NCBI RefSeq assembly: GCF_010731895.1
Contig: NZ_AP022596.1
Location: forward strand, 248,001 to 312,000
Source of the DNA: Mycolicibacterium helvum
GTDB taxonomy: Bacteria; Actinomycetota; Actinomycetes; Mycobacteriales; Mycobacteriaceae
Direction of reading: 5' to 3'
Length of the DNA stretch: 64,000 bases
A program made the translations under genes and the position numbers. The notes beneath the pieces were generated by a model that saw only the letters and a list, made by a program, of their open reading frames with translations, was not told where the DNA came from and ran no database searches. Positions 4,754 through 56,707 of the stretch are shown piece after piece (position 1 is the first letter of the stretch; each line of letters starts with the position of its first letter).

Positions 4754-4798
4754 CGTCGTCTTCTTTCTCTTGACGCCTCGGTAATGCCATCCTGGCAT

Positions 4799-4834
4799 AT
4801 ACCCCTATGGGTATGTCAAGTACCCTGGGGGGTA
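4799..4834. promoter_or_regulatory. Two CsoR/CstR-type operators before the persulfide dioxygenase gene
   Basis: Two palindromes share the pattern TACCC-N4-GGGTA: one at 4800-4813 (extended to ATACCC-CTAT-GGGTAT at 4799-4814) and one at 4821-4834 (TACCC-TGGG-GGGTA). They lie in the 129-bp gap between the small Cys-rich gene and the dioxygenase gene. This is the architecture of CsoR-family operators, and a CstR-like repressor is encoded 265 bp upstream. The inference is a second regulated promoter driving dioxygenase, SQR and TSUP. Confidence 0.75.
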
Positions 4835-4882
4835 TCTTATTCCCGAGGCTCTGACACCAGTGCGCGCGGGACGCGACGCGCG

Positions 4883-5071
4883 TTATGAGGTGCCCTGCGC
4901 GGCCTTCGGCCGCCTGAACCATCTCCTACGAGCTGGAGACGCGGAATCGAAACTCGGGTGACCGGCACACCACTGGCCGGCGGGCACGCTGCGCCTGACG
5001 GCGTCGACGTGCATCCCGCATCCCGACCAGGTGGTCTTGCCGCAAACGCGGCATTTGACGGCACGACACAT
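4883..5071 (-). CDS. Small Cys-rich (zinc-ribbon-like) protein
   Basis: The 62-residue protein starts MCRAVKCRVCGKTTWSGCG and has Cys residues at positions 2, 7, 10, 17 plus a later WCAGH. This pattern resembles short actinobacterial metal-binding proteins of unknown function that often begin MCRA. The ATG at 5071 is chosen because GAAAGGGAG lies just upstream with good spacing; a longer form from 5092 would lack this site. It is the second gene after the CstR-like repressor and may bind metal or sulfane sulfur, but no activity is known to me. Confidence 0.65.
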   Translation of the reverse strand: MCRAVKCRVCGKTTWSGCGMHVDAVRRSVPAGQWCAGHPSFDSASPARRRWFRRPKAAQGTS

Positions 5072-5099
5072 GGGAACTCCCTTTCGATTCAATCAGGGC

Positions 5100-5552
<453 letters not shown>

Positions 5553-6017: not shown

Positions 6018-8974
6018 GCTCCCCCGCCGCACGTCCAGTCATCCCCCGCACGATCCGGATGGCCGCGGTGCCGATCATCCTGATCTGGGTGGCAATCACC
6101 GCCGCGCTCAATCTGTTGCTGCCGCAAGTGGAAACCGTCGGCAAGCACAACGCGGTATCGATGTCGCCGCAGGACGCGCCTTCGGTCATCGCCGCCAAGA
6201 CGATGGGCGCGAAGTTTCAAGAATTCACCTCCGACAGCATTGCGATGGTCGTGCTGGTCGGCGATGAGAAACTGGGCGAGCCGGCACACCAGTACTACGA
6301 CAACCTGATCGGGAAGTTCGAACAGGACACCAAAAACGTCCAGCACGTCCACAATTTCTGGGGTGACCTGATCACCGCCGCCGGTGTCCAGAGCAGCGAC
6401 GGCAAGGCCGCCTACGTCCAACTCAATCTCGCCGGTGACCAGGGCAGCACCCAGGGCAACGAATCGGTGGAGGCAATCCGCGACATCGTCCATGACACGC
6501 CCCCACCGCCCGGCCTAAAGGTCTACGTCACCGGGCCTGCCCCGCTGACGACGGACACCCTCGACAGCGGCGACAAAAGCATGATCAAGATGACGGTGGT
6601 CACCATGATCGTCATCACGATCATGCTGCTGCTGGTCTACCGCTCGATCAGCACCGTGTTGCTCATCCTGGCCGTCGTCGGTATCGAGATGGGATCGGCG
6701 CGCGGCGCGGTGGCCCTGCTCGGGCACTTCCGGCTGATCGACTTCTCGACGTTCTCCGTGCCGTTGCTGACAGCGCTGGCGATCGCGGCGGGCACCGATT
6801 ACGCGATCTTTCTCATCGGCCGCTACCAAGAGGCACGCCAGAGCGGTGAAGACCCGGAATCGGCGTACTACACCGCATTCCACGGCGTCGGTCACGTCAT
6901 CCTTGGTTCAGGCTTGACCATTGCCGGAGCCGTGCTGTGTCTGCGGCTGACACGGCTGGCCTACTTCAAATCGCTGGCCTACCCGTCGGCGATCGGATTG
7001 ATCGTCGTCGTCGCAGCAGCGCTCACCGTGGTCCCCGCCATCATGGTGGTGGCGACTCGGTTCGGCCTGATGGAGCCGAAGCGCGCGATGAAGACCAAGG
7101 GATGGCGGCGGGTCGGCACCGCGGCGGTGCGGTGGCCCAAGCCGATCCTGGCGGCCTCGACCGCCGTCATCTTGCTCGGCATCCTCGCCATGGTCGGCTA
7201 CAAGACCAGCTATAACGATCGTTTCTACGTGCCCGCCGACGTCCCGGCGAACGTCGGCTACACCGCGGCCGAAAAGCACTTCAGCCCAGCGCGATTGAAC
7301 CCCGACATCATGATGATCGAATCCGATCACGACATGCGCAACCCCACCGACATGATCGTGCTGGATCGGATCGCCAAGGCACTGTTCCGGATCCGAGGGC
7401 TCGCCATGGTGCAGAGCATCACCCGGCCATTGGGCTCGCCGATCGCGCACAGTTCAATCCCGTATCAGGTCAGCATGCAGTCGGTACCGATCACCCAGAA
7501 TCTGCAGTTCCTCGAGCAGCGGGTGGCCGACATCAGCAAGATGTCGGACGATCTCGGCGGAATGATCGCGTCCATGACCGAGATGCAGAACCTGATGAAC
7601 CGGTTCTCCGATGCCATGCACCGCACGGTTGGCGGCGCTCACCAAACCCTCGGCACCGCCCACCGCACGGTCGACGACCTGAACACCATGAAGGCCTCGG
7701 TGGACCAGATGCGCGACCACCTGTCCGATTTCGACGACGCGGTGCGGCCTTTCCGCAACTACTTCTATTGGGAGCAGCACTGTTTCGACATCACGGCATG
7801 TTGGGGAATCCGGTCAGCATTCGACGCCGTCGATGGTGTCGACGCCCTCAGCGGCAACATGGCCACGGTCGTCGGTGATATGGATGCGATGGTGCGGGGC
7901 GCGGACGGAGTGGTCAACGGCATGGACCAGATGGACACGCTGGCTCCGCAGCTGGTCGCGCAATTCGGCCCCATTATCCAAACAGCCACCGCGATGCAGC
8001 AGACCCTGCAGACCATCCACGGCAGTTTCGGCGGCCTCATCAACCAGATGCACCAGATGACCGACACCGCGACGGCGATGGGCGAGGCGTTCGACGCTTC
8101 CAAAAGTGACGACTACTTCTACCTGCCACCGGAAGTCTTCGCCAATCCCGATTTCCAAAAGGGATTGAAGCTGTTCCTGTCGCCCGACGGCAAGGCAGCG
8201 CGCTTCATCATCACTCACGACGCCGATCCAGCAACCGAGGAAGGCATCTCCACCGTCGACGAGGAGGTCGTCGCGGCACACGAAGCGGTCAAGGGAACTT
8301 CCCTGGCGGCGGCGAAGGTATACCTCACCGGCACCGCAGCGACCTACCGCGACATCCAGGCGGGCGCGAAATACGACACCATGATCGCTGCGTTCGCCGC
8401 CCTGACACTGATCTTCCTGGTCATGCTCGTCATCACTCGGGCTTTCATCGCCTCCCTGGTCATCGTGGGGACGATTGTGTTGTCGCTGGGCGCCGCCTTC
8501 GGTATCTCGGTTCTGGTCTGGGAACGCATCGCGGGAATCGAGCTGAACTGGATCGTGCTCGCCTTCGCGGTGATCATCCTGATGGCCGTCGGCAGTGACT
8601 ACAACCTGCTCCTCGTTTCGCGCTTCAAGGAGGAGATCGGCGCCGGCATCAACACCGGGATCATCCGCTCGATGGGCAGCACCGGCAGCGTCGTGACCGC
8701 CGCCGGACTCGTCTTCGCCTTCACCATGGGTTCCATGGTGTCCGGCGACCTGCTCAACGTCGGCCAGGGTGGCACCACCATCGGAATCGGGCTGCTCGTC
8801 GACACCCTGATCGTGCGGTCTTTGATGACCCCGTCCATCGCAGCGCTTCTCGGTCCATGGTTCTGGTGGCCATTGAAGGTGCGTTCACGACCCGCATATA
8901 GGGCGCCGAGTCGATTCCTCGCCCAAGCTCCGTCGCCATCGGAGGGCGATGCTGTTTCTCCCGGAGCCGGCTGA
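6014..8974 (+). CDS. mmpL: MmpL family RND transporter
   Basis: The 986-residue transporter has the MmpL layout: N-terminal span, a first periplasmic loop, a block of spans with the proton-relay segment LTALAIAAGTDYAIFLIGRY, a long second loop rich in predicted coiled coil (about residues 500-700), and a second block with AVIILMAVGSDYNLLLVSRF. The Asp-Tyr pairs are the proton-coupling residues of the family. The start codon overlaps the mmpS stop (ATGA). Substrates of MmpL proteins include trehalose lipids, siderophores and drugs. Its placement beside a persulfide-sensing repressor is unusual and its substrate is unknown. Confidence 0.92.
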   Translation: MSSPAARPVIPRTIRMAAVPIILIWVAITAALNLLLPQVETVGKHNAVSMSPQDAPSVIAAKTMGAKFQEFTSDSIAMVVLVGDEKLGEPAHQYYDNLIGKFEQDTKNVQHVHNFWGDLITAAGVQSSDGKAAYVQLNLAGDQGSTQGNESVEAIRDIVHDTPPPPGLKVYVTGPAPLTTDTLDSGDKSMIKMTVVTMIVITIMLLLVYRSISTVLLILAVVGIEMGSARGAVALLGHFRLIDFSTFSVPLLTALAIAAGTDYAIFLIGRYQEARQSGEDPESAYYTAFHGVGHVILGSGLTIAGAVLCLRLTRLAYFKSLAYPSAIGLIVVVAAALTVVPAIMVVATRFGLMEPKRAMKTKGWRRVGTAAVRWPKPILAASTAVILLGILAMVGYKTSYNDRFYVPADVPANVGYTAAEKHFSPARLNPDIMMIESDHDMRNPTDMIVLDRIAKALFRIRGLAMVQSITRPLGSPIAHSSIPYQVSMQSVPITQNLQFLEQRVADISKMSDDLGGMIASMTEMQNLMNRFSDAMHRTVGGAHQTLGTAHRTVDDLNTMKASVDQMRDHLSDFDDAVRPFRNYFYWEQHCFDITACWGIRSAFDAVDGVDALSGNMATVVGDMDAMVRGADGVVNGMDQMDTLAPQLVAQFGPIIQTATAMQQTLQTIHGSFGGLINQMHQMTDTATAMGEAFDASKSDDYFYLPPEVFANPDFQKGLKLFLSPDGKAARFIITHDADPATEEGISTVDEEVVAAHEAVKGTSLAAAKVYLTGTAATYRDIQAGAKYDTMIAAFAALTLIFLVMLVITRAFIASLVIVGTIVLSLGAAFGISVLVWERIAGIELNWIVLAFAVIILMAVGSDYNLLLVSRFKEEIGAGINTGIIRSMGSTGSVVTAAGLVFAFTMGSMVSGDLLNVGQGGTTIGIGLLVDTLIVRSLMTPSIAALLGPWFWWPLKVRSRPAYRAPSRFLAQAPSPSEGDAVSPGAG

Positions 8975-9030
8975 CGTGGGCCATCGTTGGCGGGCGATAC
9001 CTGGGCGATCCAAGTGAAAGGTGATGCGTG

Positions 9031-9363
9031 ATGGATGTATTGGAGATCGACCCCGCAGGTGTGATGGCGCTGGTCGACACGTCCGGCGCCATCCTGCTGG
9101 ACGTTCGAGAGGACGATGAGTGGACCGCCGGACATGCTCCCGGTGCCGTTCATGTACGACTCGGCGCCCTGGACGCGCGCACCTTCGAGGCCGCCGTACC
9201 GATCGTGGCGGTGTGCCGGTCGGGAGGCCGATCCGGTTTGGCGGCAACCAGACTCGCGGCAGCTGGGCTAACTGTTTACAACCTGGTCGGCGGCATGGGA
9301 GCGTGGCAGCGGAGCGGGCAACCGGTGATCCGCGATGACGGCGCGGCCGGTACGATCATCTGA
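9031..9363 (+). CDS. Single-domain rhodanese-like sulfurtransferase
   Basis: The 110-residue protein has one rhodanese domain with the active-site loop VCRSGGRSG; Cys62 would carry the persulfide. LLDVREDDEWTAGHAPGA is the typical upstream motif and NLVGGMGAWQ the C-terminal one. GAAAGGTG upstream supports ATG at 9031, with GTG at 9028 as an alternative. It follows mmpL by 56 bp on the same strand, extending the sulfane-sulfur theme of this region across the divergent promoter. Confidence 0.85.
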   Translation: MDVLEIDPAGVMALVDTSGAILLDVREDDEWTAGHAPGAVHVRLGALDARTFEAAVPIVAVCRSGGRSGLAATRLAAAGLTVYNLVGGMGAWQRSGQPVIRDDGAAGTII

Positions 9364-9406
9364 TCGAGAAGCGCCCGGGGCGCAGACTGTCGGCAGACGT
9401 TCAGGC

Positions 9407-10027
9407 TCAGCCGAAGACACGTTCGACGAACGTGTCCGCGCCCTGTTTCCAGGCAACAACGAAGTTGCCGACGTCATCGCGGCTGATCGCCAGACCGGGG
9501 CAAAACCAGTCCCCGCCGTCCTCGGTGAAGAAATGCGGTGAGCCGACTACGCCACGGGCGCGGCCCTCGTCCCAATCAGCTTGGACCGCTGCGGATGTGG
9601 TCTCTACATCGAAGGGCTCGAGGCCGAAGCGACCAGCGATGGGCTCGATGACGTCGAGCCGGCCGATATCGAGCCCCTCTTCAAAAAGCGCATTGCGCAG
9701 CGCTAGGCCGACCGCTTCGACCAGCACGGGATCGCCCACGCGGTCCGCAGCAGCGGCCAGCGCGTATGCGGTCATCGACGTTTTCGGGAAGGCATCGACG
9801 GAGAAGCCCCCGAACAGGTCGGGACGCACCGACGCGCGAAGCGCCGAAATCTCGGCACCAACGTGGTGGCCCTCAAGCGGGTTGCCGTTGATCAGCTCGA
9901 GTGGCCAGGCCCGGATGCGCAGGCGCGGTTCAGTGAGGCCACGCTCGCTGCGCCGGTCGATCAACGTCCGCAGCCCGACGTGGGTAAACGGACACAGGAT
10001 GTCGGCAAAGACCTCGACGGTGCGCAT
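9407..10027 (-). CDS. DsbA/FrnE-like thioredoxin-fold protein
   Basis: The 206-residue protein opens with a thioredoxin-fold strand and CPFTH motif (ADILCPFTHVGLRTLIDRR), with a single active-site Cys12. It has the late cis-Pro region ARGVVGSPHFF that DsbA/FrnE-family proteins use next to the active site. The second cysteine of a CxxC is replaced by Thr, so a glutathione- or mycothiol-S-transferase-like or isomerase role is more likely than disulfide oxidation. It is convergent with the rhodanese gene. Confidence 0.75.
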   Translation of the reverse strand: MRTVEVFADILCPFTHVGLRTLIDRRSERGLTEPRLRIRAWPLELINGNPLEGHHVGAEISALRASVRPDLFGGFSVDAFPKTSMTAYALAAAADRVGDPVLVEAVGLALRNALFEEGLDIGRLDVIEPIAGRFGLEPFDVETTSAAVQADWDEGRARGVVGSPHFFTEDGGDWFCPGLAISRDDVGNFVVAWKQGADTFVERVFG

Positions 10028-10066
10028 GGCGGCGACAGTACCCGGCCGATTTCCGAACAGTCGATG

Positions 10067-10435
10067 TTACGACGCCTGACCTGCCGCGGCGTCAGCGAAC
10101 TCGCAGAACGCTGTGTAGGCACGCGCGCCGTAGATAGTTGCCGGGCCGCCATGCATCATGATGCTGACACCGATGACCTCGGCCGCCTCCTGCTTGGTGG
10201 CACCCGCGCGGACTGCGCCGCGCGCGTGAGAGGCGATGCATCCGTCGCAGCCCTGGACGACTCCGATCACCATCGCGATCAGTTCTTTGGTCTTGGCCTC
10301 GACCGCACCGGTGCCCATCGCGGCCCGGCTCAGCGCACCGAACCCCTCGTATACCTCGGGAATCATCTGCCGCAGGGCGCGATGCTGCGGGTTCAACTCG
10401 GCCAGCACATCGGAGTGGTGGGCGTGATCTGTCAT
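10067..10435 (-). CDS. AhpD-like carboxymuconolactone decarboxylase family protein
   Basis: The 122-residue protein has the AhpD/CMD core with the redox motif GCDGCIASHARGAVRAGAT, where CxxC and the following His form the alkylhydroperoxidase active site. The ATG at 10435 is chosen because homologues start shortly before ELNPQHRALRQM; a longer frame reaches 10507 but adds sequence unlike the family. It is 39 bp upstream of the DsbA-like gene on the same strand, suggesting a small thiol/peroxide-related operon. Confidence 0.8.
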   Translation of the reverse strand: MTDHAHHSDVLAELNPQHRALRQMIPEVYEGFGALSRAAMGTGAVEAKTKELIAMVIGVVQGCDGCIASHARGAVRAGATKQEAAEVIGVSIMMHGGPATIYGARAYTAFCEFADAAAGQAS

Positions 10436-45384: not shown

Positions 45385-48300
45385 TCATCGTCGATACCGT
45401 GAGGCATCCTCGACAAAAGAATTTAGTGTCGCCAGCAGCCTCATGTCGTTGACGGTCCGAGCGCGCGTGTTGAGTAGTTCCTCGGTGCACACCAGATAGG
45501 CGAGACAGCGCGCTCGGCTGACCGCGACGTTCAACCGGTTACGCGAAAACAAGAAGTCGATGCCGCGGACGATGTCTTCGCCGCTCGATGTCGCCATGCT
45601 GAAGAACACGACCGCTGCTTCCTTGCCTTGGAATTTATCCACCGTGCCCACCGGCACGCCGGCAGTGACAGCGTGCCGCGCGAGCCCGTCACGGATCGCA
45701 CGCACCTGGTCGTTGTAGGGCGTGACGACCATGAAATCAGTTGTTATAAGCGGTTTCGTACACCCGTCGAAGTCGGTCCATTCGGTGCCGATTAGCTGAC
45801 GAATCTGGTCGACGATGACGTCTGCTTCCTCGGTCGAAGAGGTCCCGTTCCCGTCGTGCGCTGCCTGTAGCCATCGCAAACCTGTTCCCGCGGAGGTTGA
45901 TTGTCGCTCGCAGTCGGGGTGGTGCGTGAGCCGCCCCTCGTAGATTTGCTCGGAGATGAAGCCACAAACGTCCGGGTGCATACGCCACGTCTCCGTGAGG
46001 AACACACCACGGTCATCGGCCAGGGTGACGTTCTCCCCCACGATGTGCTCAAGGACACTGCGCCCGCTTCCACGTGGGTGGACCGCTTGGGCGACTTGAG
46101 GCAGTTGCAGCGGATCTCCTAGCACAATCAAGTTGTGGGCAGCTCGCGATGCAGCGAGCGTATCGGCCAGCGACATTTGGCCTGCCTCGTCCACGACGAG
46201 TACGTCGACCGGTTCGGCAGCCATGGCGTTCGACGCGAATAACCACGTTGTTCCTGCAACGAGGTTGAAGTTCGAACCTGCGCACGCCGCATTCGTCGTG
46301 GCACTAGTGGCTCCGATCGGCGAGGGAACACCCTCGGGCCCTTTGTGCGCGGCGCGTAGGTCAATGAGGCGACCGTTCCGAGTGAACACGGCGATCACCT
46401 TCTGCAAGAGGTGGGTGATGGCGACGTGGCTTGTAGCAGTTATTCCGACCCGCATGCCGGCGGTGATCAGCGTGTAGATGAGGTGCGCGGCGTTGTGGGT
46501 CTTCCCCGCGCCCGGCGGACCTTGAATCGCGACAAAACTGTGGTCAAGCTGGGTGACCCATCGTGTCATGTCGACGAGGTCGTCGATGAACACCCCGTCG
46601 GCCGGCCCGCCCGCGGTGAAACGCGGGAGTTGTCGGTCAATCAATCCAACAGTGACAGGGTTCGGCGGGCGACCGGCGAGTATGTCGTCGGCAAAGGCCT
46701 GTAGAGCCAAGGCCTTCGATTTGGGATCGACCCAGTCGTCGAGAACGACGGATGCAGGCACACAACCCGATTCGCGCAACTTCTCCCCCCAGATGAGGTC
46801 TACCTCGCCCGACGCGCGATCCAGGCGCTCGATGGTGGAATACAGCCGCTTGCCATCCAAATCGAGGAAGATGACTGTGCCACCTCCGCGCGGAAAGCGT
46901 TCCAAGTTCTGGGCCGGGAAGCTGAACCGCATCAGCGGACTGATCGGCCGACCTCGTTTGCCGATTCTCTCAATTCGCGTGACAAATTCCATGCAGGCCA
47001 ACGCTTCAGGGTCTGTCAGGAGGTCGTCAGGGTCGGCTTGGAGCTTGAGTGTTCGGGGGACGATGTACGCCTTCCACTCGCGCCACCAATAGCCCAGCAG
47101 GTCTCCGAGGAAGAATTCTCGGGTGCCCTCACCAAACTCGTGGAGCCGGACGACGCGTTCGTTGAGTTCCGGGATGCCCTGTTCGGGTTCGGTGACCGCG
47201 TCGCGGAAGGCCAGGCCAGCTGGGCGATTGTCCAGCAGCCAGTGCCGCAATGCCCGTGTCGCGCGGACGTCGTCTTCGTTGTAGGCAGCGATTGGTGCCA
47301 GTGTCGCTTCATCGCCGTCCACCATGTATTGCTCGTATTGGACAACGGCCCCGGCGCCCTTGTCGATGTCGTGGCTGCGTTGAAACTTGGCGAGCCGCTC
47401 CAGCGATTTCAATCCATAGGACTCGGCGCCGACTTGAAAACTATTGAGTGCCACCGCATACAGGTCCACAAACGCGCCAGTATCCACCAGTTCGGTCAGC
47501 TCAGCCTCAGTGACTCCGTAGGATTCGGCTAACCCCCTCAACGCCGAACGCTCGGTGTGGTTGTAGTGATAAACATGCATGCCCGGGTACAGATTGCGGC
47601 GCTCACGCAGATAGACGACCAGCTCTCCAACCGCGTCAGCTTCCTGCCCCTGGTCATGGGCCCACCACGCCCGATAGGTCCAATCACTGCAACCGTTGCG
47701 CTCAAGTAGTCCGAAGAGAAAGAACAGCCCAGTATCGGGCCGCCAAAACGGATGACCCTCAAAGTCGAGGAACACGTCGCCGTCGTCCGGTGCGGGCAAC
47801 TGCTCCAGCCCACGGCCCCACACCGGTTCATTACTCGGCGCGATTATCGAAAACGGTGGTGGCCCAGCAAGATCGACGCGTGCCTGCAGTTGCAGAGCTG
47901 CCTGCCCAACCAAGCGAGTCAGCCGCGTGGGATTCATGCCCTCGACGGGATCGGTAGCTCCCGCCAGCTGAGTCAGCGTCGGCAGGTCAGCTCCGGTCAG
48001 AGTGGTGATGTCACGCTGACGGATGCCGGCAACGTAGACCAGTGAGTCCTCGCTGCGCCAACGCTCCTCACACACCGAGTCGAACTCGCAGTAATCGCAA
48101 TGCAGACATGGTTGTGGGACCGTGGCTGCATCAGGTCCGCGCACGATCGCCTCGGAGAGCTGAGTACGCAACCGACGCCAATACGACCGGAACTCATTGA
48201 CGCGCAGCGACTCTAGGTGCCCGGAGCCCAACCAAAGGTGCATTCGATTGACCGGCGTGTGTGTGAGCGCCCTGAGGGCTTCGGCGTAGAAACACAGCTG

Positions 48301-48738
48301 CAAGACGTGTCCTGGCTTGGCTTCGACGCGAGTCAGCTTGGCGTCAACGGGCTCGTACGAGACTGTGCCCGTTTCCGAATCGTGCCCGCGGATCACGAAG
48401 TCGGCGATGCCCTGGATGCCGTCGTGGATGAATGGCATCTGGTAGAAAACGTCGTAAACGCCCGCCAACGGGTTCCCAATCCGCTCGACCCAGTCGGAAA
48501 AGCGTTCACCCTCTTGCCGCTGAGGAACCTCCAGGATCGACTTGCCTTGACGGCGGTAGTTCTCTAGACAGTCGCGTTCATGCGCGATCCCTTTGTCGGC
48601 GACAAGTCGCGCGAAGGACCCGAACACCGGTTTGGGGTCGTCAATGAGGCCGCCGTCGACCTGCCCGCGGAGCGTGAGATAGTGAGGGCACTCTAACCAG
48701 GCAGTGACCTTCGAGGGCGTCATCGGTCTTGGTGGCAC
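45385..48738 (-). CDS. RecB-like nuclease, RNase H-like and SF1 helicase fusion (TM0106 type)
   Basis: The 1,117-residue protein starts at GTG 48738 behind GGAGG. Its N-terminal RecB-like nuclease domain (1-230) has Cys17 (LECPHYL), active-site YEPVDAKLTR and three Cys in CLHCDYCEFDSVCEERW that could hold an iron-sulfur cluster as in Cas4/AddB. A DEDD RNase H-like domain (about 320-520) begins with VFLDFEGHPFW. The SF1 helicase (about 730-1,110) has Walker A IQGPPGAGKT, DEAGQMSL, and VDKFQGKEAAVV. Such proteins process DNA ends; the genomic role is unknown but they recur in mobile and defence contexts. Confidence 0.88.
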   Translation of the reverse strand: MPPRPMTPSKVTAWLECPHYLTLRGQVDGGLIDDPKPVFGSFARLVADKGIAHERDCLENYRRQGKSILEVPQRQEGERFSDWVERIGNPLAGVYDVFYQMPFIHDGIQGIADFVIRGHDSETGTVSYEPVDAKLTRVEAKPGHVLQLCFYAEALRALTHTPVNRMHLWLGSGHLESLRVNEFRSYWRRLRTQLSEAIVRGPDAATVPQPCLHCDYCEFDSVCEERWRSEDSLVYVAGIRQRDITTLTGADLPTLTQLAGATDPVEGMNPTRLTRLVGQAALQLQARVDLAGPPPFSIIAPSNEPVWGRGLEQLPAPDDGDVFLDFEGHPFWRPDTGLFFLFGLLERNGCSDWTYRAWWAHDQGQEADAVGELVVYLRERRNLYPGMHVYHYNHTERSALRGLAESYGVTEAELTELVDTGAFVDLYAVALNSFQVGAESYGLKSLERLAKFQRSHDIDKGAGAVVQYEQYMVDGDEATLAPIAAYNEDDVRATRALRHWLLDNRPAGLAFRDAVTEPEQGIPELNERVVRLHEFGEGTREFFLGDLLGYWWREWKAYIVPRTLKLQADPDDLLTDPEALACMEFVTRIERIGKRGRPISPLMRFSFPAQNLERFPRGGGTVIFLDLDGKRLYSTIERLDRASGEVDLIWGEKLRESGCVPASVVLDDWVDPKSKALALQAFADDILAGRPPNPVTVGLIDRQLPRFTAGGPADGVFIDDLVDMTRWVTQLDHSFVAIQGPPGAGKTHNAAHLIYTLITAGMRVGITATSHVAITHLLQKVIAVFTRNGRLIDLRAAHKGPEGVPSPIGATSATTNAACAGSNFNLVAGTTWLFASNAMAAEPVDVLVVDEAGQMSLADTLAASRAAHNLIVLGDPLQLPQVAQAVHPRGSGRSVLEHIVGENVTLADDRGVFLTETWRMHPDVCGFISEQIYEGRLTHHPDCERQSTSAGTGLRWLQAAHDGNGTSSTEEADVIVDQIRQLIGTEWTDFDGCTKPLITTDFMVVTPYNDQVRAIRDGLARHAVTAGVPVGTVDKFQGKEAAVVFFSMATSSGEDIVRGIDFLFSRNRLNVAVSRARCLAYLVCTEELLNTRARTVNDMRLLATLNSFVEDASRYRR

Positions 48739-49540
48739 GGCACCTCCACGAGTGGGTTCAAACCGTTAAAGGATCGCATTGACCGGACCCGAAAAGGGAC
48801 GTCTAGTGTGCAAAACGAAGACGTTGTTGCCTCGGCTCGGTGCTCCTATTCCAACACAGTGCTGGGACCAAAGTGCACACTTGCAATTTCCGACGCGCTC
48901 GACCACGCGGTCACTCGATGACTCGGGACTGGGATTCCCCCGACCGTATGTCATTCTGCGATCGCGGCTCCGAGACAGTCATTCACTATCCCCAGATGGC
49001 GAATGAACATTCTTTGGGCATGGTGCAAACATCAGACATTCAGGGTCAGAGTAGGCCGGGGTAACGTTTTGCCCTAGCCAATGTCCGCAAACAACGCGAG
49101 TGAACTCAGGTTTGAGGCGAATCGCCCTAGGTTCCGACGGCCGCTCGGCGTCATAACTAATGACCCACGATGTTATCTGAGTGACACCTGCCGAAACCTG
49201 CCGAGCCTCGCCCATCCAACGCACGTCGTTGGTCCTCTCGCCAGCGCGTGGGTCGCCATGCAACGCCCCGCCCACAAATGGCAACGGAGACGCCCAGCAA
49301 ATGAAAGGGCGCGTGCCTCGGCCACGCCGCGCCTACCGTCTCCCATAAGCCCCGGGGATCGGACTGGTGCTGCGGAGATCGGCAAGGCCGCTCGGTTACT
49401 TCGACAAAACGTCGGCGTGCTGCGTAGGCCTGCTAGTCTTCGCCCGCGGCCACGCCACCTAGGCCGTCATGCGGCTACCGATACGCGCACAGCCGATGAA
49501 CTATCGGACGGCGCTCGGGGCGACAACCCTTGGAGGCGCG
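48739..49540. other. Intergenic region between divergent helicase and nuclease genes
   Basis: About 800 bp with no gene-like frame on either strand. It must hold both promoters, one for the minus-strand helicase fusion and one for the plus-strand nuclease protein. I see no strong palindrome. Confidence 0.45.
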
Positions 49541-51505
49541 GTGGGATACAACATCGAGTGGGACGGCCACACCGTCACATTTCCGCCAGCGGGTGATCCA
49601 GAGGGCGCGGTGTCATTTAAGCCCTTTCGTGAAGGTGTGCTTCGGCTGAGGAGGTATGCGGTCGCCATGTTCAATTCGGCCGCCGGCCGTCCGATGCGAA
49701 TATCGTTACCGGTTGTCCTCATCCCCCTTGGCGGACCCTACGACCGTGTGTCGGTCGCGGCACCGCAATCCGTCGGGGGCGACAAGGAAGTCCGGCACAT
49801 TGGCTTTCTAGACGACAAGTTCGTTCGGTTACTCGAACGCAGCGGACGCGACGCCATATGCCGGCTTGCTGAACGGTCCGGCGGCGAGATTGGTTGCACC
49901 GCAATCATTGTGCGTGACAATGACTACGACGGCCTCGACTTTGACAATCCAGGCGACCTCAAGCGCGCCTACACCGATATCAAACTCGACTTGCCCAGTG
50001 CCGCTGAAGTGGCCGGTGCCATCGAAGACTTCGGGCGTCTGCGCACCGATCATGTGCTCGACCGCTTGCGGACGTTTGAGACCGCAGAAATAGAGATTGG
50101 TGCATTGTCCGTGACGCTTGAAGAGGGAGTGTACAAACAACCCAGTACGCTCAACGTCGTCTCCGACGGCGTGCACATCGGGTGGGTCGCGCTAGGTTGC
50201 CTTTTTCTCAAGGATGACCGTCAGCGCGCCGCAGTCCTCGACGGCCTGAACAAACTTGGAATCCCGGCAGCAGCGCCCCGAGAGCCACGACCAGAAGCCG
50301 CTGAGAGCCCGGAATGGGATCCCAACGAGGTACCAAACGTGTTCGTTTCATGGGCTGCTGGCGGGCACAGCTTCACGTGGGTCCCGCCAGCTGACCTCCC
50401 GACAGTCCCAATATTTCGACGCACGTTCGCGCACTACAACCCCACGACAAAGACTCTGTGGGTTGAGGACGAGAGGCTCGTCGCGCCCACCTGTCTAGTC
50501 GCAGCCCGCGTGGGCCTGGACGTTGTGAAAATTGGTCTGCCTCAGCAGAGTTGGAGCTTGTGGCAGCAAGTGGATCGAAGTGAACTGCGGGACCTGTCCT
50601 ACGATCATCACCCCTACAAAGTGCGGGAGTTGCACCCGCGCGTAGCCGAGCTCGTGCCGAAAGACCTCTTCGACCAACAAGACTTAGAGCGCTTCGCCCC
50701 TCCCGAAGGGAAGACCGGCCAAGAGCCAACAGAGTTGTTGGAGAGGCTCACCCTCCGCCGGCTCGCCCTATTTCCGAACCACACGTATCTCGATGAACTA
50801 GGCACATGCCGGATCTGTGGACGCCCGGCCGGCCGATTTCGCATACCCATCTGCGCCGAGACCCTCGCGTATTGCCACCGCTGCCTCGCCATCGCCGACA
50901 AAGGCCTTTCGGACGGCTACCTGAAGAAGCGATCCATCCCTCGAGCGACAGTCGCAGTGCGGGCCCTCGCGGACCACGAGTTCGGCGGCGCCGCGTTCGT
51001 CGAGGCCCAACTGGCCACCGTCCACGGTGACCCTAAACACCCCGTGCAAGCACGCGACATCGACCGCAGGCTGATACTGCGTATTGCCATCGTGCGCCGA
51101 CAACTCGCATGGACCCACATCCTGATCGACGTCGGTCTGGCCGAAAACGGTGTCCGGCTGTCGCGTGGCACGGTCCTCAAAGCGATGGACGGGCACATGT
51201 GCTATTCCATGCTCGAGAAAGCTGTCGACGACTTCCTACACGAGCACGGCATCGACCACGTGCGAGAACCGTTGTATCCGTTCGACGAACAGCTCAATCC
51301 AAACACCCGCCGCCGCGCCGACTGGTTACTCAGCGACGACGGAACATTCATTGAAATGTGGGGCATGGTCGACGACCCGGCTTACGCCGAAAAGATGCGC
51401 GAAAAGATCGAACTGGCGGCTCGCCACCAGCTGCGCCTTATCGGAATAACCCCAGCAGACACGGGGAGCCTGAGCGCTATCTTCGCCGATTGGACAAGAA
51501 AGTAG
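49541..51505 (+). CDS. Large protein with zinc finger and Vsr/DUF559-like nuclease end
   Basis: The 654-residue protein starts at a GTG four bases after TTGGAGG; further upstream codons have no SD. Residues 1-260 are unrecognised. About residue 425-470 is a treble-clef-like zinc finger (CRICGRPAG and YCHRCL). The last 100 residues have a Vsr/DUF559-like PD-(D/E)xK nuclease pattern: LEKAVDDFLHEHGI, Asp594 in RRRADWLL, Glu605 in FIEMWGMVDD and Lys in AEKMREKIELA. I infer a nucleic-acid-cutting protein of a defence or mobile-element system. Its partners are not obvious. Confidence 0.6.
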   Translation: MGYNIEWDGHTVTFPPAGDPEGAVSFKPFREGVLRLRRYAVAMFNSAAGRPMRISLPVVLIPLGGPYDRVSVAAPQSVGGDKEVRHIGFLDDKFVRLLERSGRDAICRLAERSGGEIGCTAIIVRDNDYDGLDFDNPGDLKRAYTDIKLDLPSAAEVAGAIEDFGRLRTDHVLDRLRTFETAEIEIGALSVTLEEGVYKQPSTLNVVSDGVHIGWVALGCLFLKDDRQRAAVLDGLNKLGIPAAAPREPRPEAAESPEWDPNEVPNVFVSWAAGGHSFTWVPPADLPTVPIFRRTFAHYNPTTKTLWVEDERLVAPTCLVAARVGLDVVKIGLPQQSWSLWQQVDRSELRDLSYDHHPYKVRELHPRVAELVPKDLFDQQDLERFAPPEGKTGQEPTELLERLTLRRLALFPNHTYLDELGTCRICGRPAGRFRIPICAETLAYCHRCLAIADKGLSDGYLKKRSIPRATVAVRALADHEFGGAAFVEAQLATVHGDPKHPVQARDIDRRLILRIAIVRRQLAWTHILIDVGLAENGVRLSRGTVLKAMDGHMCYSMLEKAVDDFLHEHGIDHVREPLYPFDEQLNPNTRRRADWLLSDDGTFIEMWGMVDDPAYAEKMREKIELAARHQLRLIGITPADTGSLSAIFADWTRK

Positions 51506-51565
51506 CCCTTCGCAGCCGAGCCGTGTTGTTCATGTTGTATCGCAGCATCGCGGCTGGTTCTGAGG

Positions 51566-52327
51566 TCAGACGCTGACGTCCCCCGCATGCGTGGATGCGA
51601 TCAGTATGTGTGTGGTGGGATGGCGTGTGTCGTCGGTGGAGATGCGCAGTGCGCAGAACCGATCGATGAGTTGGTGTGCCGCCCAGCGATGGTCGATCAG
51701 CGGGCTGAGGAGTTGGGCGCGTGCGAGTAGATCGATTGTTTCGTCCCAGCTGAGCAAGTAGTCCCCGAGCAGGTGGTAGGAGGTGCCGGATCGTAGGAGG
51801 TAGCCGCCACGGATATCGAGGGCCGTGGCGACTTCGATGGCGATGTCGTCCGCGCTGGAGCTGTGCGGTACCGAAAAGTCCAGCATGGGAACATGTCCCG
51901 AGCCATCCGCGGTTTCGATCCGCGAACTGAGCGACACCATATCCCGGGCCGAAAGACCAAAGAAAGCCCCTTTCCGCAAGTCTGTGACGAACTTCCCGAC
52001 TGGGACGGCCGTGGGCGGTGCGGCGTTGTGCTGGATAACGCGCGACAGCAGAGCGCGCCGGGTTACCTCGTCAGCGTGGATGGCGGTGGTGAGCAGGCTG
52101 TCCCAGAATCCGTATCCTCGGGCGCGGTACTCAATTCGCGCGGCCCGTATGAGCTCGTCTGCCGTCGGTGTGAGGTCCCCGGTGTGCAGCGAGAAAGGTC
52201 GCTGCAAATAGATCAATGCGATACGCAGTGCGCCGATGCCGTTCAATAGCTCGGGCAGGACCGAAACCAGATCGGCGGGCACGTCTGTGCGCCGCCAGGT
52301 GCTCGGCGGTGTTTGAGAAGACGTCAT
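51566..52327 (-). CDS. Archaeo-eukaryotic primase-like (primase 1D-like) protein
   Basis: The 253-residue protein has a C-terminal stretch (YLLRSGTSYHLLGDYLLSWD, then DHRWAAHQLIDRFCALRIS) that I associate with proteins annotated primase 1D-like, an archaeo-eukaryotic primase relative. Its N-terminal half is helical (ALLSRVIQHNAAPPTAVPVG). It is the last gene of the SIR2 operon, 116 bp after the phosphoribosyltransferase gene, with an inverted repeat between. Catalytic residues cannot be assigned by eye. ATG at 52327. Confidence 0.55.
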   Translation of the reverse strand: MTSSQTPPSTWRRTDVPADLVSVLPELLNGIGALRIALIYLQRPFSLHTGDLTPTADELIRAARIEYRARGYGFWDSLLTTAIHADEVTRRALLSRVIQHNAAPPTAVPVGKFVTDLRKGAFFGLSARDMVSLSSRIETADGSGHVPMLDFSVPHSSSADDIAIEVATALDIRGGYLLRSGTSYHLLGDYLLSWDETIDLLARAQLLSPLIDHRWAAHQLIDRFCALRISTDDTRHPTTHILIASTHAGDVSV

Positions 52328-52353
52328 GGCGCGAGGTCTCTTGTTCGGGTCCG

Positions 52354-52377
52354 TACAGCGTGGATGTACACGCTGTA
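52354..52377. promoter_or_regulatory. Perfect 9-bp inverted repeat upstream of the primase-like gene
   Basis: TACAGCGTG (52354-52362) and CACGCTGTA (52369-52377) flank a 6-base spacer, 27 bp upstream of the primase-like start and inside the 116-bp gap after the phosphoribosyltransferase gene. It could be an operator, a processing site or an attenuator-like hairpin. No T-run follows. Confidence 0.5.
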
Positions 52378-52443
52378 GGAGTATGCAGCGCGTTTCAGCA
52401 AATTCTGTGTGATCCCGTGAATTCGAGGCGGTGCTGCCAGCCG

Positions 52444-53193
52444 TCAGCTGACGATCGGGCTCGTCGACCAGGTGAATCCGGCCGCAATCTGTCGATCCCA
52501 CAGCGCCTGGGCGTCCGGGTGGAATTCCGTCCGTATGCGGCGGGCGATGGTGAATGCGCCGGTGATGATATGTCCTCCCCCGCGCAGGGCCGTCGCTGCG
52601 CTATTGATGTGGGCCCCCGTCGTGTAGACGTCGTCAACCAGCAGCACCCGCTGGGGTGTTTGGTGGGAGGCCAGTCGATAGCCGTCCGCTGCAGGCTTGT
52701 TGAAGTCGAGATCACCAGGACCACGGACGAGCAGCGGAACCACTGGCACGGGTAAATCGATTGTTGCTAATGCCTTTTCGAGTGGGTGCGGAGGTGGGCG
52801 ATGGGTGGAAGGAACCACCACGATGCAGTCGAGTCCGCCACCGCGAGAGATGAGGCGCTCAGTGTGATCGTTGAAGAACTGCCATAACAGCGCTTGGATT
52901 TTCTGCTCGTACTCCGGGACGTAAGGATCGTCGCTGTCTGGGCGCCCCTTGTATGAGGTGAGCCAGTCTCGCAGCAGGGAGGGTTTGCGGTAGAGCGTGA
53001 TGACGTCAACTGTGACGGCGGCGTCGGTGAGGACGTCCTCGACGAGCATGCAGTTGCTGCACACCGTCTGATCTGGTTGGTCGTTCCATGTCCGGCACGT
53101 CGGACAAATTCCTGGACCCGGTCGAGGCGGGGATACCAGCTCCGGCACGAGTGTCTGGGCATGCAGCTGCAACTGTTCAGCCGATGGGCGCAT
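52444..53193 (-). CDS. ComF-like phosphoribosyltransferase with N-terminal zinc ribbon
   Basis: The 249-residue protein has CPTCRTWN and CSNCML spaced as a zinc ribbon (residues 30-50), then a central part, and the PRPP-binding loop VLLVDDVYTTGAHINSA (about residues 185-205), the signature of type I phosphoribosyltransferases. The layout is that of ComF. ATG at 53193 lies 5 bp after the DprA stop; a TTG at 53202 overlapping that stop is possible. Coupling with DprA-like and SIR2-SLOG genes suggests a role in a nucleotide-based response rather than natural competence. Confidence 0.8.
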   Translation of the reverse strand: MRPSAEQLQLHAQTLVPELVSPPRPGPGICPTCRTWNDQPDQTVCSNCMLVEDVLTDAAVTVDVITLYRKPSLLRDWLTSYKGRPDSDDPYVPEYEQKIQALLWQFFNDHTERLISRGGGLDCIVVVPSTHRPPPHPLEKALATIDLPVPVVPLLVRGPGDLDFNKPAADGYRLASHQTPQRVLLVDDVYTTGAHINSAATALRGGGHIITGAFTIARRIRTEFHPDAQALWDRQIAAGFTWSTSPIVS

Positions 53194-53198
53194 CGCGG

Positions 53199-54074
53199 TC
53201 AAATCGCGAGTCCTATCCGATCCAGGACCTCGTCAGTTGAACTGACGAACATGCCCCGCCCGGTGCTGACCAGTTCGTGTGCCCAGGGCTGAGAGGCCAA
53301 CACTGGTTCCCACAGAAGGGCCGGTCGGCCGTAGGCCACTGCTTGTTCGATCTCGTGGCGGCTGCCGCTGCGGCAGCGCCCGTCGATGATGAGGCTGACG
53401 TCCGACAGCCCAGCGATGACATGGTTGCGGCGTAGAAACGTCGTTCCGGTGCGCGGCGCGTCGGGCGCGAACTGCGAGATGAGGACGCCTTCACGGCGTA
53501 TCCGCTCGCTTAAAGGACCGTTCTCGGCGGGGAAGACACGCCGAATGCCAGTCCCGAGAACGGCGATGGTGACGCCGTCGGCCTCGAGAGCACCGGCGTG
53601 CGCCTGGGTGTCCACGCCGGCAGCGAGCCCGGAGATCACCACCACGCGGTGCTGGGCCAGCGTGTAGCCGAGTTTCTGTGCGTCAGACAATGCGCGATCA
53701 CCCGCTTCGCGGCTGCCGATGATCGCTACCGCGGGTCCATCGGGCACCGCACCGGTGGTGAATAAGACCGGAGGCGCATCCCAGCACCGAGCCAGTCGGG
53801 CGGGGTATTCAGCCGTCCCGGCCAACACGGGGCATGCGGTGTTCGACTCGACCGTCTCCGACAGGGCTTTGAACCACCATTCGCGGCGTCCGACGTCGAT
53901 TTGCTCGCACAGGTAGCTGACGAGGTCGCCGCACGAGGCGTGGTGGTCTAGATCGAGCAACGCCTGACGTTCTGCAGGGTTGCGCAGGATTTGGGTCAGG
54001 TCGCTGGGGCTGGCGGGCAATAATTCCTGGGCAGCCATGATCGTGGCCACTTCCATGAGGGCGCCGGTATCCAT
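53199..54074 (-). CDS. DprA-like (SMF, SLOG-fold) protein
   Basis: The 291-residue protein has the DprA Rossmann core: AIIGSREAGDRALSDAQKLG, VVVISGLAAGVDTQAHAGAL, and FLRRNHVIAGLSDVSLIIDG. DprA loads RecA on incoming single-stranded DNA; this copy is shorter than the usual 350-380 residues and lacks a clear C-terminal winged helix. It lies between the SIR2-SLOG effector and the phosphoribosyltransferase with almost no spacing, so it is probably a dedicated system component (DNA sensor or nucleotide binder), distinct from the housekeeping dprA. Confidence 0.85.
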   Translation of the reverse strand: MDTGALMEVATIMAAQELLPASPSDLTQILRNPAERQALLDLDHHASCGDLVSYLCEQIDVGRREWWFKALSETVESNTACPVLAGTAEYPARLARCWDAPPVLFTTGAVPDGPAVAIIGSREAGDRALSDAQKLGYTLAQHRVVVISGLAAGVDTQAHAGALEADGVTIAVLGTGIRRVFPAENGPLSERIRREGVLISQFAPDAPRTGTTFLRRNHVIAGLSDVSLIIDGRCRSGSRHEIEQAVAYGRPALLWEPVLASQPWAHELVSTGRGMFVSSTDEVLDRIGLAI

Positions 54075-54141
54075 GGATCCAACTGTAAGTCAGGGGTGTG
54101 ACATCTCCTCGTATTTACGGGATGAATGCCCTGTTCAGCGT

Positions 54142-55554
54142 CTATTTCTGCGGGGTGTACATGGCTTGTTTCAACAGGGCGTGGGCGGCGCGGGCCGCGA
54201 CGGCATGCTGATCGCTGTTGAGGTTTGACCAGATTTGCTGATCAACGGTTTGGCCGCCGAGCGCCGGGGGCGTGGTGGTGCGCTCCGACCAGTAGTCCTG
54301 CGCGGCGCCGCCGGATGCGGCGATAGGAATGATTCCGACGCCGCGGGCTTCTGCCCATCGGATTTCCTCGGCGGTTCGCTCCCCACCTCGGATCACGATC
54401 AACGCACGGCACTCATCGAGGAGCTGTCCCACGAGTTGTTCGCGGGGAAGGTCGGTATATACGGCTGTGCCCAGACGCATTTCCATTGGGGGCGGTGGTT
54501 CGTCGTTGGCCCGGAAGTGAAACGTTAACGCGTCGGGGTCGTAGGTGCCCTCGGCGCGGCGGGCTTGCGCGACTCCGCTAGTGACATCCCATCCGGCAGG
54601 GCCGCCCAGTGAGGTCAGCTGCCATCCGGTCTCCCCGATCAGCACGTCGGCGACGGCTTTGCACCAAGGCACGATGATGTCGCGATCAGGGTCCCCGCCA
54701 GCGGCTGCGGGCTTCTGGCTGCCTGCCACAAAGATTCGGGGTGGCCGAGTCCTGCGGACCAGATCATTGAGCAGCGGGACGATTTCGTCGTACCCATCGA
54801 TTTCGTGGACCCTGACGCCGCTGGATTCCAGGTCTTTAACGCGCAGATCATGAAGCCGTCGTGGCGTCGAGTCGTCGGCCGGCCGTCGCAGAACGGTCAT
54901 ATGCCGATCGTGCACATTGGTTCCCAGTGTTCGTGCCAGGCGGAGAAGGATCTCGATGTTCGGGTCGGTGAAGCTGAATCCGAGGAACAAGAAGGTGCGG
55001 CTCAAGTACGCAGCGCGAAGCAGCGACCAGGTACGCGGACGGTTGATCTCGTAAGCCTCGTAGTCGCTGCGCGTAATGACGGGTTCTTTCGCCCAACGCC
55101 TTTCGGCAGTCACAACGCTGCCGTGCATCTTGATGATCGTCGCGGTGGCGCTGCCGATCGACTGGATTTGTTCTTCTTGGATGGCGACTGACGCGCCGGG
55201 CACCGCTTGTTCGATCAGCTCGTCGTAATTGGTCGTCCAGATTTCCTTGACCCGCAGCTTCGGGATCAAGCGGTGGCTGTCGGTCGGGGTGGGGTTGGCA
55301 CCGACGATTTGGTCAAGAATGTGATGCTCGAGGCGGTCGCGGCCACCGTGGCGCCGGTCGGCGTCGATGTATTCGGCCACCAGCGGTAGGTCGGTCAGCT
55401 CCGCAGGGACTTCGCAGTCGCTGCGCAGCGAGTCCAGCAGATCCGACCAGTTCGGCACGCCGGCATCCAGCGACAAGCCGGCGCCGACGAACAGCGCCGC
55501 GTTGCCCTCCAACACTGCAGCGCCGAACGTATCGATCAACTCGAGCCTGTTCAT
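54142..55554 (-). CDS. SIR2-SLOG (STALD) protein, ThsA-like
   Basis: The 470-residue protein has an N-terminal SIR2 NADase domain (1-265): ALFVGAGLSLDAGVPNW, TTNYDELIE with Asn109, and IKMHGS with His144, matching the catalytic Asn/His positions of ThsA. The C-terminal SLOG domain (about 272-420) shows PRIFVAGSQ, SLGGPAGWDVTSGVA, and the nucleotide-loop VIRGGERTAEEIRWAEA. This domain order is the ThsA plan of Thoeris, where the SLOG domain binds a signal made by a TIR protein (ThsB). No TIR gene lies in the window. ATG 55554 follows GGGGG with suitable spacing. Confidence 0.8.
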   Translation of the reverse strand: MNRLELIDTFGAAVLEGNAALFVGAGLSLDAGVPNWSDLLDSLRSDCEVPAELTDLPLVAEYIDADRRHGGRDRLEHHILDQIVGANPTPTDSHRLIPKLRVKEIWTTNYDELIEQAVPGASVAIQEEQIQSIGSATATIIKMHGSVVTAERRWAKEPVITRSDYEAYEINRPRTWSLLRAAYLSRTFLFLGFSFTDPNIEILLRLARTLGTNVHDRHMTVLRRPADDSTPRRLHDLRVKDLESSGVRVHEIDGYDEIVPLLNDLVRRTRPPRIFVAGSQKPAAAGGDPDRDIIVPWCKAVADVLIGETGWQLTSLGGPAGWDVTSGVAQARRAEGTYDPDALTFHFRANDEPPPPMEMRLGTAVYTDLPREQLVGQLLDECRALIVIRGGERTAEEIRWAEARGVGIIPIAASGGAAQDYWSERTTTPPALGGQTVDQQIWSNLNSDQHAVAARAAHALLKQAMYTPQK

Positions 55555-55915
55555 CGCTAGCCCCCGTCCAACCGCTCGCACTCCGAACCCCACAAGTTAA
55601 CAGGAGCGGTGGGTCCAAGCCTGTAAAGCGCCATAACGTTGTGTGGCAGCGCGACGTCTCGCCGCCGAGATGGGATCGATGCCCCCTTTGGCGGAGTCCA
55701 TCACGAACGCCGCACGGTGCCAGGCATGGGATCTCTCGCGGGGACTGCGCAAGAAGCACTGCTGTTGAGCGGCCGCGAATCACAGACCAGGCAGACCAGC
55801 TGCACCGCGCCGACCACCGCAATGCCGATAACTGCCGAATATGTCAGCCTCAGTTGGCCTGCGGCGCAAGCCCTGGCCCAATGAGCGCAGGGCATTTCCC
55901 GATTTTCGGGCGCGA
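55555..55915. other. Right margin of the island, before nei
   Basis: About 360 bp. A minus-strand frame (LRLTYSAVIGIAVVGAVQLV) predicts a small membrane segment but has no convincing start or ribosome-binding site. The promoter of the SIR2 operon should lie in the first 100 bp. Confidence 0.4.
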
Positions 55916-56707
55916 CTACACCTGGCAGCTGGGACACCAGAAGACATTGCGGCCCTCCAGCACGGCGGTCAGGATTCCGGTGGCGCACACGCGGCACGGG
56001 TCGCCGGCGCGCCGGTAGACGTAGGTGCGCGGTCGGTTCGGCGCATACGACGGTGCGCCGTGATCGTGCTCGGGTGCCACCACCACGATCTTGCCCGTGC
56101 GCACACCGACCTTCATCAACGCGACCAGGTCGGTCCAGGCGTCGGCGAATTCCACGTCACTGACGTCGCGGCCCAGCCGGTAGGGGTCGATGTGGTGCCG
56201 GAACAGCAACTCGCTGCGGTACACATTGCCCACCCCGGCGATCACGCTCTGGTCCATCAGAAGTGCTCCGACAGTCTTGCGGGACTTGGAGATTCGCGCC
56301 CACGGCAGCGCCGGGTCGGCGTCCCGGCGCAGCGGGTCGGGTCCCAGCCGCGCCACGATGGCCGACACCTGCGCTTCGTCCACGACGTCGCAGGCCGTCG
56401 GGCCGCGCAGGTCGGTGCCGTACTCAGTGCCCACGACCCGCATGCGTACCTGGCCGACGGGCAGCGGCATCGGCACCGGCGCCTCGGTGAAGGTGCCGTA
56501 CAACCCCAGATGGATGTGCACGATCGGGCCGCCGTCGTAGTGATGGAACAGGTGCTTACCCCACACCGATGCGCGGGTGAACACCCGGCCGTTGAGGATC
56601 GCGGCGTCGGTGAACCGGCCCTGCGGGCTCGATACGGCTGCCGGGGCGCCGGCGAAGCGGCGCTGATGCAGCCGGGCGAGCCGGTGCAGGGTGTGGCCTT
56701 CCGGCAC
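55916..56707 (-). CDS. nei: Endonuclease VIII-like DNA glycosylase (Fpg/Nei family)
   Basis: The 263-residue protein starts MPEGHT, so Pro2 and Glu3 are the catalytic N-terminus. A helix-two-turn-helix (QSVIAGVGNVYRSELLF) and a C4 zinc finger (CRVCATG and WCPSCQV) follow. It removes oxidised pyrimidines and cleaves the strand. The position matches M. tuberculosis nei (Rv2464c) next to rpiB. Confidence 0.93.
   Translation of the reverse strand: MPEGHTLHRLARLHQRRFAGAPAAVSSPQGRFTDAAILNGRVFTRASVWGKHLFHHYDGGPIVHIHLGLYGTFTEAPVPMPLPVGQVRMRVVGTEYGTDLRGPTACDVVDEAQVSAIVARLGPDPLRRDADPALPWARISKSRKTVGALLMDQSVIAGVGNVYRSELLFRHHIDPYRLGRDVSDVEFADAWTDLVALMKVGVRTGKIVVVAPEHDHGAPSYAPNRPRTYVYRRAGDPCRVCATGILTAVLEGRNVFWCPSCQV

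Follow-up and report, generated by a model that had tools for sequence, protein, structure and literature searches.

A rare actinobacterial gene set joins a DprA/phosphoribosyltransferase pair to a ThsA-like SIR2-SLOG protein

A four-gene operon in Mycolicibacterium helvum

We have analysed a 64,000-nucleotide stretch of the Mycolicibacterium helvum genome (contig NZ_AP022596.1, positions 248,001 to 312,000), here called the window, in which four minus-strand genes lie side by side. They encode, in order, a SIR2-SLOG protein (P0001), a DprA-family protein (P0002), a zinc-ribbon type I phosphoribosyltransferase (PRTase, P0003) and a protein resembling archaeo-eukaryotic primases (AEP, P0004). 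Related sets occur at eight other loci, which implies that the company these genes keep is more than chance. The set is a real, rare and conserved unit in which a pair of the ShosTA kind is joined to a ThsA-like candidate enzyme of nicotinamide adenine dinucleotide (NAD) degradation, or NADase. The reading frames (51566-55554) and spacings given in an initial annotation of this DNA stood up to rechecking: the SIR2-SLOG and DprA genes are 67 bp apart and the PRTase and AEP-like genes 116 bp apart, while the DprA and PRTase genes overlap by 4 bp if the latter starts at TTG or are separated by 5 bp if it starts at the ATG at 53193. The family assignments of that annotation are likewise sound, with clear Pfam matches to the SIR2_2, DprA and AEP-like (PF24387) models and matches below cut-off to those for the SLOG and PRTase parts (STALD and Pribosyltran).

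P0001 matches Pfam SIR2_2 at 1.3e-26 and strongly resembles ThsA in both fold and profile match. Its NADase motifs are intact, and SLOG residues R371, T394 and E397 are invariant across the aligned relatives. The contacts of BcThsA with 3' cyclic ADP-ribose (3'cADPR) are R371, K388 and E403, according to the cited part of PMC10022894. In our alignment of the SLOG loops, which is one of profiles and not of coordinates, two of these three (R371 and E403) align with the invariant R371 and E397 of P0001; the loop bearing K388 is absent, and the motif GGxRTxxE stands instead. The SLOG part searched alone matched no solved chain. A SLOG pocket with invariant ligand-type residues suggests control by a small molecule. 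The two Pfam models used to look for TIR partners, ThsB_TIR (PF08937) and TIR_2 (PF13676), matched nowhere in the whole 6.4 Mb genome.

P0002 matches Pfam DNA_processg_A (9.5e-48) and the PADLOC model for ShosA (3.7e-51). The ShosT profile matches P0003 weakly (2.4e-4, 19.1 bits, residues 182-225 only) and reaches E<=0.01 in all 34 aligned PRTase relatives. The phosphoribosyl pyrophosphate (PRPP) motif D190, D191, T194, G196 is kept in 34/34 rows of that alignment and the four cysteines in 33/34, the remaining row being a gap. The initial annotation had compared the two proteins with DprA and ComF of competence. We reject this assignment, as both family models score under their cut-offs (TIGR00732 for dprA, 145.4 bits against 191.15; comF, 24.1 against 233.55) and the genome encodes another DprA with a higher score (220.8 bits with PF02481, against 163.5 for P0002). 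The pair resembles ShosTA instead.

P0004 belongs clearly to the AEP-like family (PF24387, 4.2e-45, 153.2 bits against a cut-off of 27). Catalysis by AEP primases needs two acids (DxD) in motif I. With motif I placed by sequence and not by superposition, D150 is present in 23/23 rows of the family alignment and residue 152 is acidic in none of the 23, so that P0004 is, as judged from alignment, a divergent AEP lacking the second acid. This makes the synthesis or extension of primers by P0004, as proposed in the initial annotation, doubtful. The comparison of folds suggested there bore out the ThsA likeness of P0001 and gave no Foldseek match at E<=0.001 for the AEP-like model.

Table 1. Features of the operon and adjoining candidate defence genes (window coordinates)
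Feature	Coordinates	Strand	Remarks
SIR2-SLOG protein P0001, ThsA-like NADase effector candidate	54142-55554	-	470 aa, ATG start
SLOG domain of P0001	54145-54744	-	~residues 271-470, GGxRTxxE motif
DprA-family protein P0002, ShosA-like	53199-54074	-	291 aa
Zinc-ribbon type I PRTase P0003, ShosT-like	52444-53202	-	252 aa from TTG; 249 aa from ATG 53193
AEP 1D-like protein P0004	51566-52327	-	253 aa
P0005, convergent 678-aa protein, candidate defence gene	49469-51505	+	C-terminal part resembles PADLOC candidate PDC-S69 (1e-10)
P0006, 1117-aa RecB-like nuclease + RNase H-like + superfamily 1 (SF1)-type helicase protein, candidate defence gene	45385-48738	-	TIGR03491 5.1e-59; PADLOC MkoA 7.3e-45

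Conservation, rarity and surroundings of the set

Relatives were sought separately with the AEP, SIR2-SLOG and PRTase proteins; DprA was never used as a query. The AEP search returned two genome contigs, L002 (M. llatzerense) and L003 (a Herbiconiux metagenome-assembled genome), and two plasmids, L004 (M. chubuense pMYCCH.01) and L005 (Pantoea). The SIR2-SLOG search matched 81 plasmid records, of which two only had a query coverage of at least 80% (L004 and L007, the latter from M. vanbaalenii), together with one of 108 genomes of one other genus (L108) and one of 37 genomes of another, this being G1080, the source of L096, again. Within the family, the PRTase search matched 12 of 351 genomes, our own among them; the 11 others gave L094-L104.

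Nine loci carry a set of the SIR2-SLOG type: the window, L002, L003, L004, L007, L094, L095, L096 and L108. All four genes stand in the order SIR2-DprA-PRTase-AEP in the window, L002, L004, L094 and L108, and SIR2-DprA-PRTase was found without the AEP in L007, L095 and L096. L003 has AEP-SIR2 and a convergent PRTase gene. DprA is present in eight of the nine loci, in the order SIR2-DprA-PRTase each time (8/8), and its gene adjoins that of the PRTase in the window and in seven of the eight other loci, the 4-bp overlap recurring in L095 and L108 when longest-frame starts are taken. The core is formed by three genes, those for SIR2-SLOG, DprA and PRTase, and the AEP is not an obligatory member. 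The operon proposed in the initial annotation is supported, and so are the co-occurrence and order of its genes, for which that annotation suggested a search, in a set that is rare.

Because these nine loci were selected for their SIR2-SLOG gene, a fair count has to be made separately for each query that led to a locus. Three of the four AEP-found loci (L002-L005) carry SIR2-SLOG and PRTase; all three loci found by a close full-length SIR2-SLOG protein (L004, L007, L108) carry DprA and PRTase; and DprA adjoins the PRTase in 11/11 PRTase-found loci, the three best-scoring of which (L094-L096) carry SIR2-SLOG. The AEP is present in two (L094, L108) of the five loci that have SIR2-SLOG, DprA and PRTase and were not found via the AEP (L007, L094-L096, L108). 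L108, found with the SIR2-SLOG profile alone, has the complete four-gene set in unchanged order. As a control, the same profiles gave no PRTase, DprA or AEP match in any of 73 viral loci (6.6-13.4 kb each) with distant SIR2 relatives.

Counting our own genome, the AEP family is found in 1/198 genomes of the genus and 1/396 of the phylum, and SIR2-SLOG in 1/198, 1/396 and 1/249; 4-8 candidates were scored per genome, so that misses are possible. The AEP alignment found no relatives among viral contigs or among phages, and the PRTase alignment none among viral contigs. SIR2-SLOG has 73 viral-contig relatives, all at most 35% identical, and there are two distant SIR2 proteins among phages.

The SIR2-linked proteins also group together in phylogenies. 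In the PRTase tree a single branch (support 99/98) sets all nine SIR2-linked proteins apart from the others; in the DprA tree, which includes the housekeeping copy on a long branch, the same is true of the eight SIR2-linked DprAs (99/100). The closest named loci are from Mycolicibacterium (L002, L004). Identity to the window for SIR2, DprA, PRTase and AEP is 94, 86, 86 and 83% in L004 and 60, 57, 54 and 47% in L094, and the window PRTase is 20-27% identical to the PRTases of the eight pairs without SIR2-SLOG. Across seven loci, SIR2, DprA and PRTase show correlated pairwise identities (Spearman 0.79-0.84), as co-inheritance or ordinary relatedness would give alike. In metagenomes, PRTase and SIR2 homologues had longest contigs of equal size 19 times, against a chance mean of 0.55 and maximum of 4 (2000 trials, sizes shifted by up to 10%); the figures are 7 for AEP/PRTase (chance 0.08) and 6 for AEP/SIR2 (0.07). 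These links cover 119/135 PRTase, 119/745 SIR2 and 24 AEP matches on contigs of at least 2400 bases; equal size is not proof of one contig, and one case of 2436 bases is too short for three complete genes.

The flanks were compared for eight loci (all except L108), taking the window from 40000 on and leaving out open reading frames with low GC at third codon positions. Outside the set, the two plasmids share a PIN gene as well as a tyrosine recombinase, and the window shares a protein kinase with L007; within the set, some shadow frames gave matches too. Of the nine loci, two (L004, L007) are plasmid-borne, and on these Mycolicibacterium plasmids the tyrosine recombinases (L004 3312-4244 and L007 7315-8352, 64% identical) lie a few genes from the set, which is possibly a mobile unit there. 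After the set in L096 (10231-14775) come reading frames that by eye resemble a resolvase and the transposon proteins TniA, TniB and TniQ.

Other loci add observations of their own. Near the Herbiconiux version of the set, L003 has an AAA ATPase gene (3909-5276; PF13304, 'putative AbiEii toxin'). In L097 the PRTase open frame (8207-10189) spans 660 residues from stop to stop and lies beside DprA without a SIR2-SLOG gene of the set type; it has no Pfam match at 0.01, and its PRTase is the sister of the SIR2-linked ones in the midpoint-rooted tree. The distant AEP-like gene of L005 (9824-10471) directly follows genes annotated as HD domain and dGTP triphosphohydrolase, another nucleotide-linked context.

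Within the window, GC content is 0.605-0.638 across 45-56 kb (2-kb windows) and higher on either side (0.657-0.668 at 42-45 kb, 0.666-0.688 at 55-59 kb), with a further low stretch at 40-43 kb (0.615-0.621). Next to the operon are genes whose products have formamidopyrimidine-DNA glycosylase and RpiB domains. Rfam gave no match in window positions 49000-56500, and P0005 has no Pfam match at E<=1.

A candidate antiphage unit and its alternatives

The reading that we favour, with a probability of about one half, is that the set forms one antiphage abortive-infection unit in which a ShosTA-type DprA/PRTase module controls a NADase that resembles ThsA and is gated by a ligand, with an AEP-like protein as a frequent accessory. 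DprA, a DNA-binding protein of SLOG fold, would keep the module off until infection, by way of abnormal single-stranded DNA (ssDNA) or host interference, frees the PRTase. The latter would use PRPP and so make or unbalance a nucleotide, which P0001 would sense with its SLOG pocket; the SIR2 domain would then destroy NAD and the cell would stop. The AEP may bind DNA ends or nucleotides and tune the sensing. We infer the role in defence, the direction and identity of the signal, the final loss of NAD and the parts played by DprA and the AEP; the suggestion of the initial annotation that NAD depletion is licensed by ssDNA or by a nucleotide has the same standing.

A more specific form of this reading can be put forward tentatively. 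Signalling would be TIR-free, the DprA-gated PRTase making from PRPP a (phosphoribosyl) nucleotide that binds and activates the SLOG-gated SIR2 NADase, so that halves of ShosTA and Thoeris would act as one signal-effector system with the catalytically altered AEP as a sensor of DNA or nucleotides. If it is true that a PRTase product opens the NADase, this would reveal what defence PRTases produce and add a class of immune nucleotide. The interest of the operon lies in this pairing of a SLOG NADase with a candidate signal-making enzyme, in a genome with no detected TIR enzyme.

Several points weigh against the unit as proposed. The set is seen at few loci, all of them in actinobacteria, and of the 81 plasmid records with a SIR2 match the neighbourhood comparison covers two, the matches in the other 79 being weaker. 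The SLOG part of P0001 scores 18.7 bits with STALD (cut-off 24), and P0003 scores 16.8 bits with Pribosyltran (E 0.0043, cut-off 26.3). The AEP was not found within 14-21 kb around three of the nine loci; DprA was not seen in L003, where the first gene begins at base 310 from the contig end; the gene for the Pantoea AEP-like protein (23.8% identity) stands without any of its three partners; and eight of the 11 PRTase-found loci (L097-L104) lack SIR2-SLOG, so the pair exists alone. The absence of a TIR enzyme is judged from two Pfam models. Lastly, the PRTase may be a mere second toxin and not the maker of a signal.

The main alternative, a rather unlikely one, has two effectors: a ShosT-like PRTase would drain PRPP or purines and the SIR2 protein would destroy NAD, both being restrained by DprA. 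Loss of PRPP would block PRPP-dependent NAD salvage, a built-in block of NAD repair that would make NAD loss hard to mend for cell or phage. The invariant PRPP motif agrees with this, as does the cited part of a review, which describes ShosT as both a phosphoribosyl transferase and a pyrophosphatase, with disturbed purine metabolism and finally cell death as the result (PMC12593503). According to the cited passages, Nampt combines PRPP with nicotinamide to give nicotinamide mononucleotide (NMN), and pathways that reconstitute NAD are carried by phages (PMC12774641, PMC12300627), which might bear on the operon. The scheme leaves the invariant SLOG residues R371, T394 and E397 unexplained and, with neither TIR family matched, calls for another source of ligand.

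Control by direct protein contact is improbable: DprA would bind P0001 at its SLOG part and keep it inactive until phage ssDNA pulls DprA off, and the PRTase would modify or stabilise the complex. Both proteins have SLOG-type domains and their genes adjoin in 8/8 loci with DprA, but those same ligand-type residues suggest a small molecule. Very unlikely is a form of Thoeris in which the TIR partner diverges too far to be recognised by the models used, or is supplied from elsewhere: the fold and profile match to ThsA and the two aligned 3'cADPR contacts speak for it, and the absence of any ThsB_TIR or TIR_2 match, the regular DprA and PRTase partners and the missing K388 loop speak against it. 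Least likely of all, that these are unrelated genes sharing a defence island, to which P0005 and P0006 next to the operon and the eight pairs without SIR2-SLOG might point, we reject in view of the same genes and order within different flanks, the grouping in both trees, the full set in L108 and the 0/73 control loci.

Comparison with known systems

On present evidence the unit is not a categorically new system. The initial annotation knew of no described system with this set; that holds for the whole, in that DprA, PRTase and SIR2-SLOG joined as one system were not found in the open literature searched, and the parts seen of PMC9122126 and PMC7824862 name the terms only in separate places. 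It does not hold for the DprA-PRTase pair, which PMC9122126, in the part cited, reports to protect against T7 and lambda, with DprA homologues as antitoxins. In ShosTA too DprA adjoins the PRTase, and the ShosA profile matches P0002 well, the ShosT profile P0003 weakly and in part; the nine loci here add SIR2-SLOG and often the AEP, and their proteins group apart in trees. ShosA is described as a DNA-binding antitoxin and T7 Gp0.7 as a trigger (PMC12593503, the part of the review cited), and ShosTA in actinobacteria tends to be plasmid-borne (PMC10482375, part cited).

PsyrTA is likewise a DprA-like protein with a PRTase and is matched less well (PADLOC PsyrA 2.3e-28, PsyrT 0.018), the PsyrT profile having 689 positions against 252 aa here. 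P0004 differs from AEP primases and PrimPols (RepB', AsfvPrimPol, LigD PolDom) in that its family lacks the second motif-I acid in 23/23 rows. KomBC belongs to the Kongming system. By the titles of PDB entries, its SIR2 NADase chains were solved with deoxyinosine triphosphate (dITP) and NAD, a purine nucleotide at the switch.

P0001 is of the SIR2-SLOG effector type of Thoeris, in which cADPR isomers from ThsB TIR proteins open ThsA (PMC11204291, part cited). Here neither TIR model matches, the K388 loop is absent, and the partners are DprA and the PRTase; Thoeris membership is rejected on the whole-genome result with the two models. The operon connects two defence modules that have been the subject of separate studies, one being the DprA/PRTase pair and the other a SLOG-gated NADase for which the published activators, in the sources cited, come from TIR enzymes.

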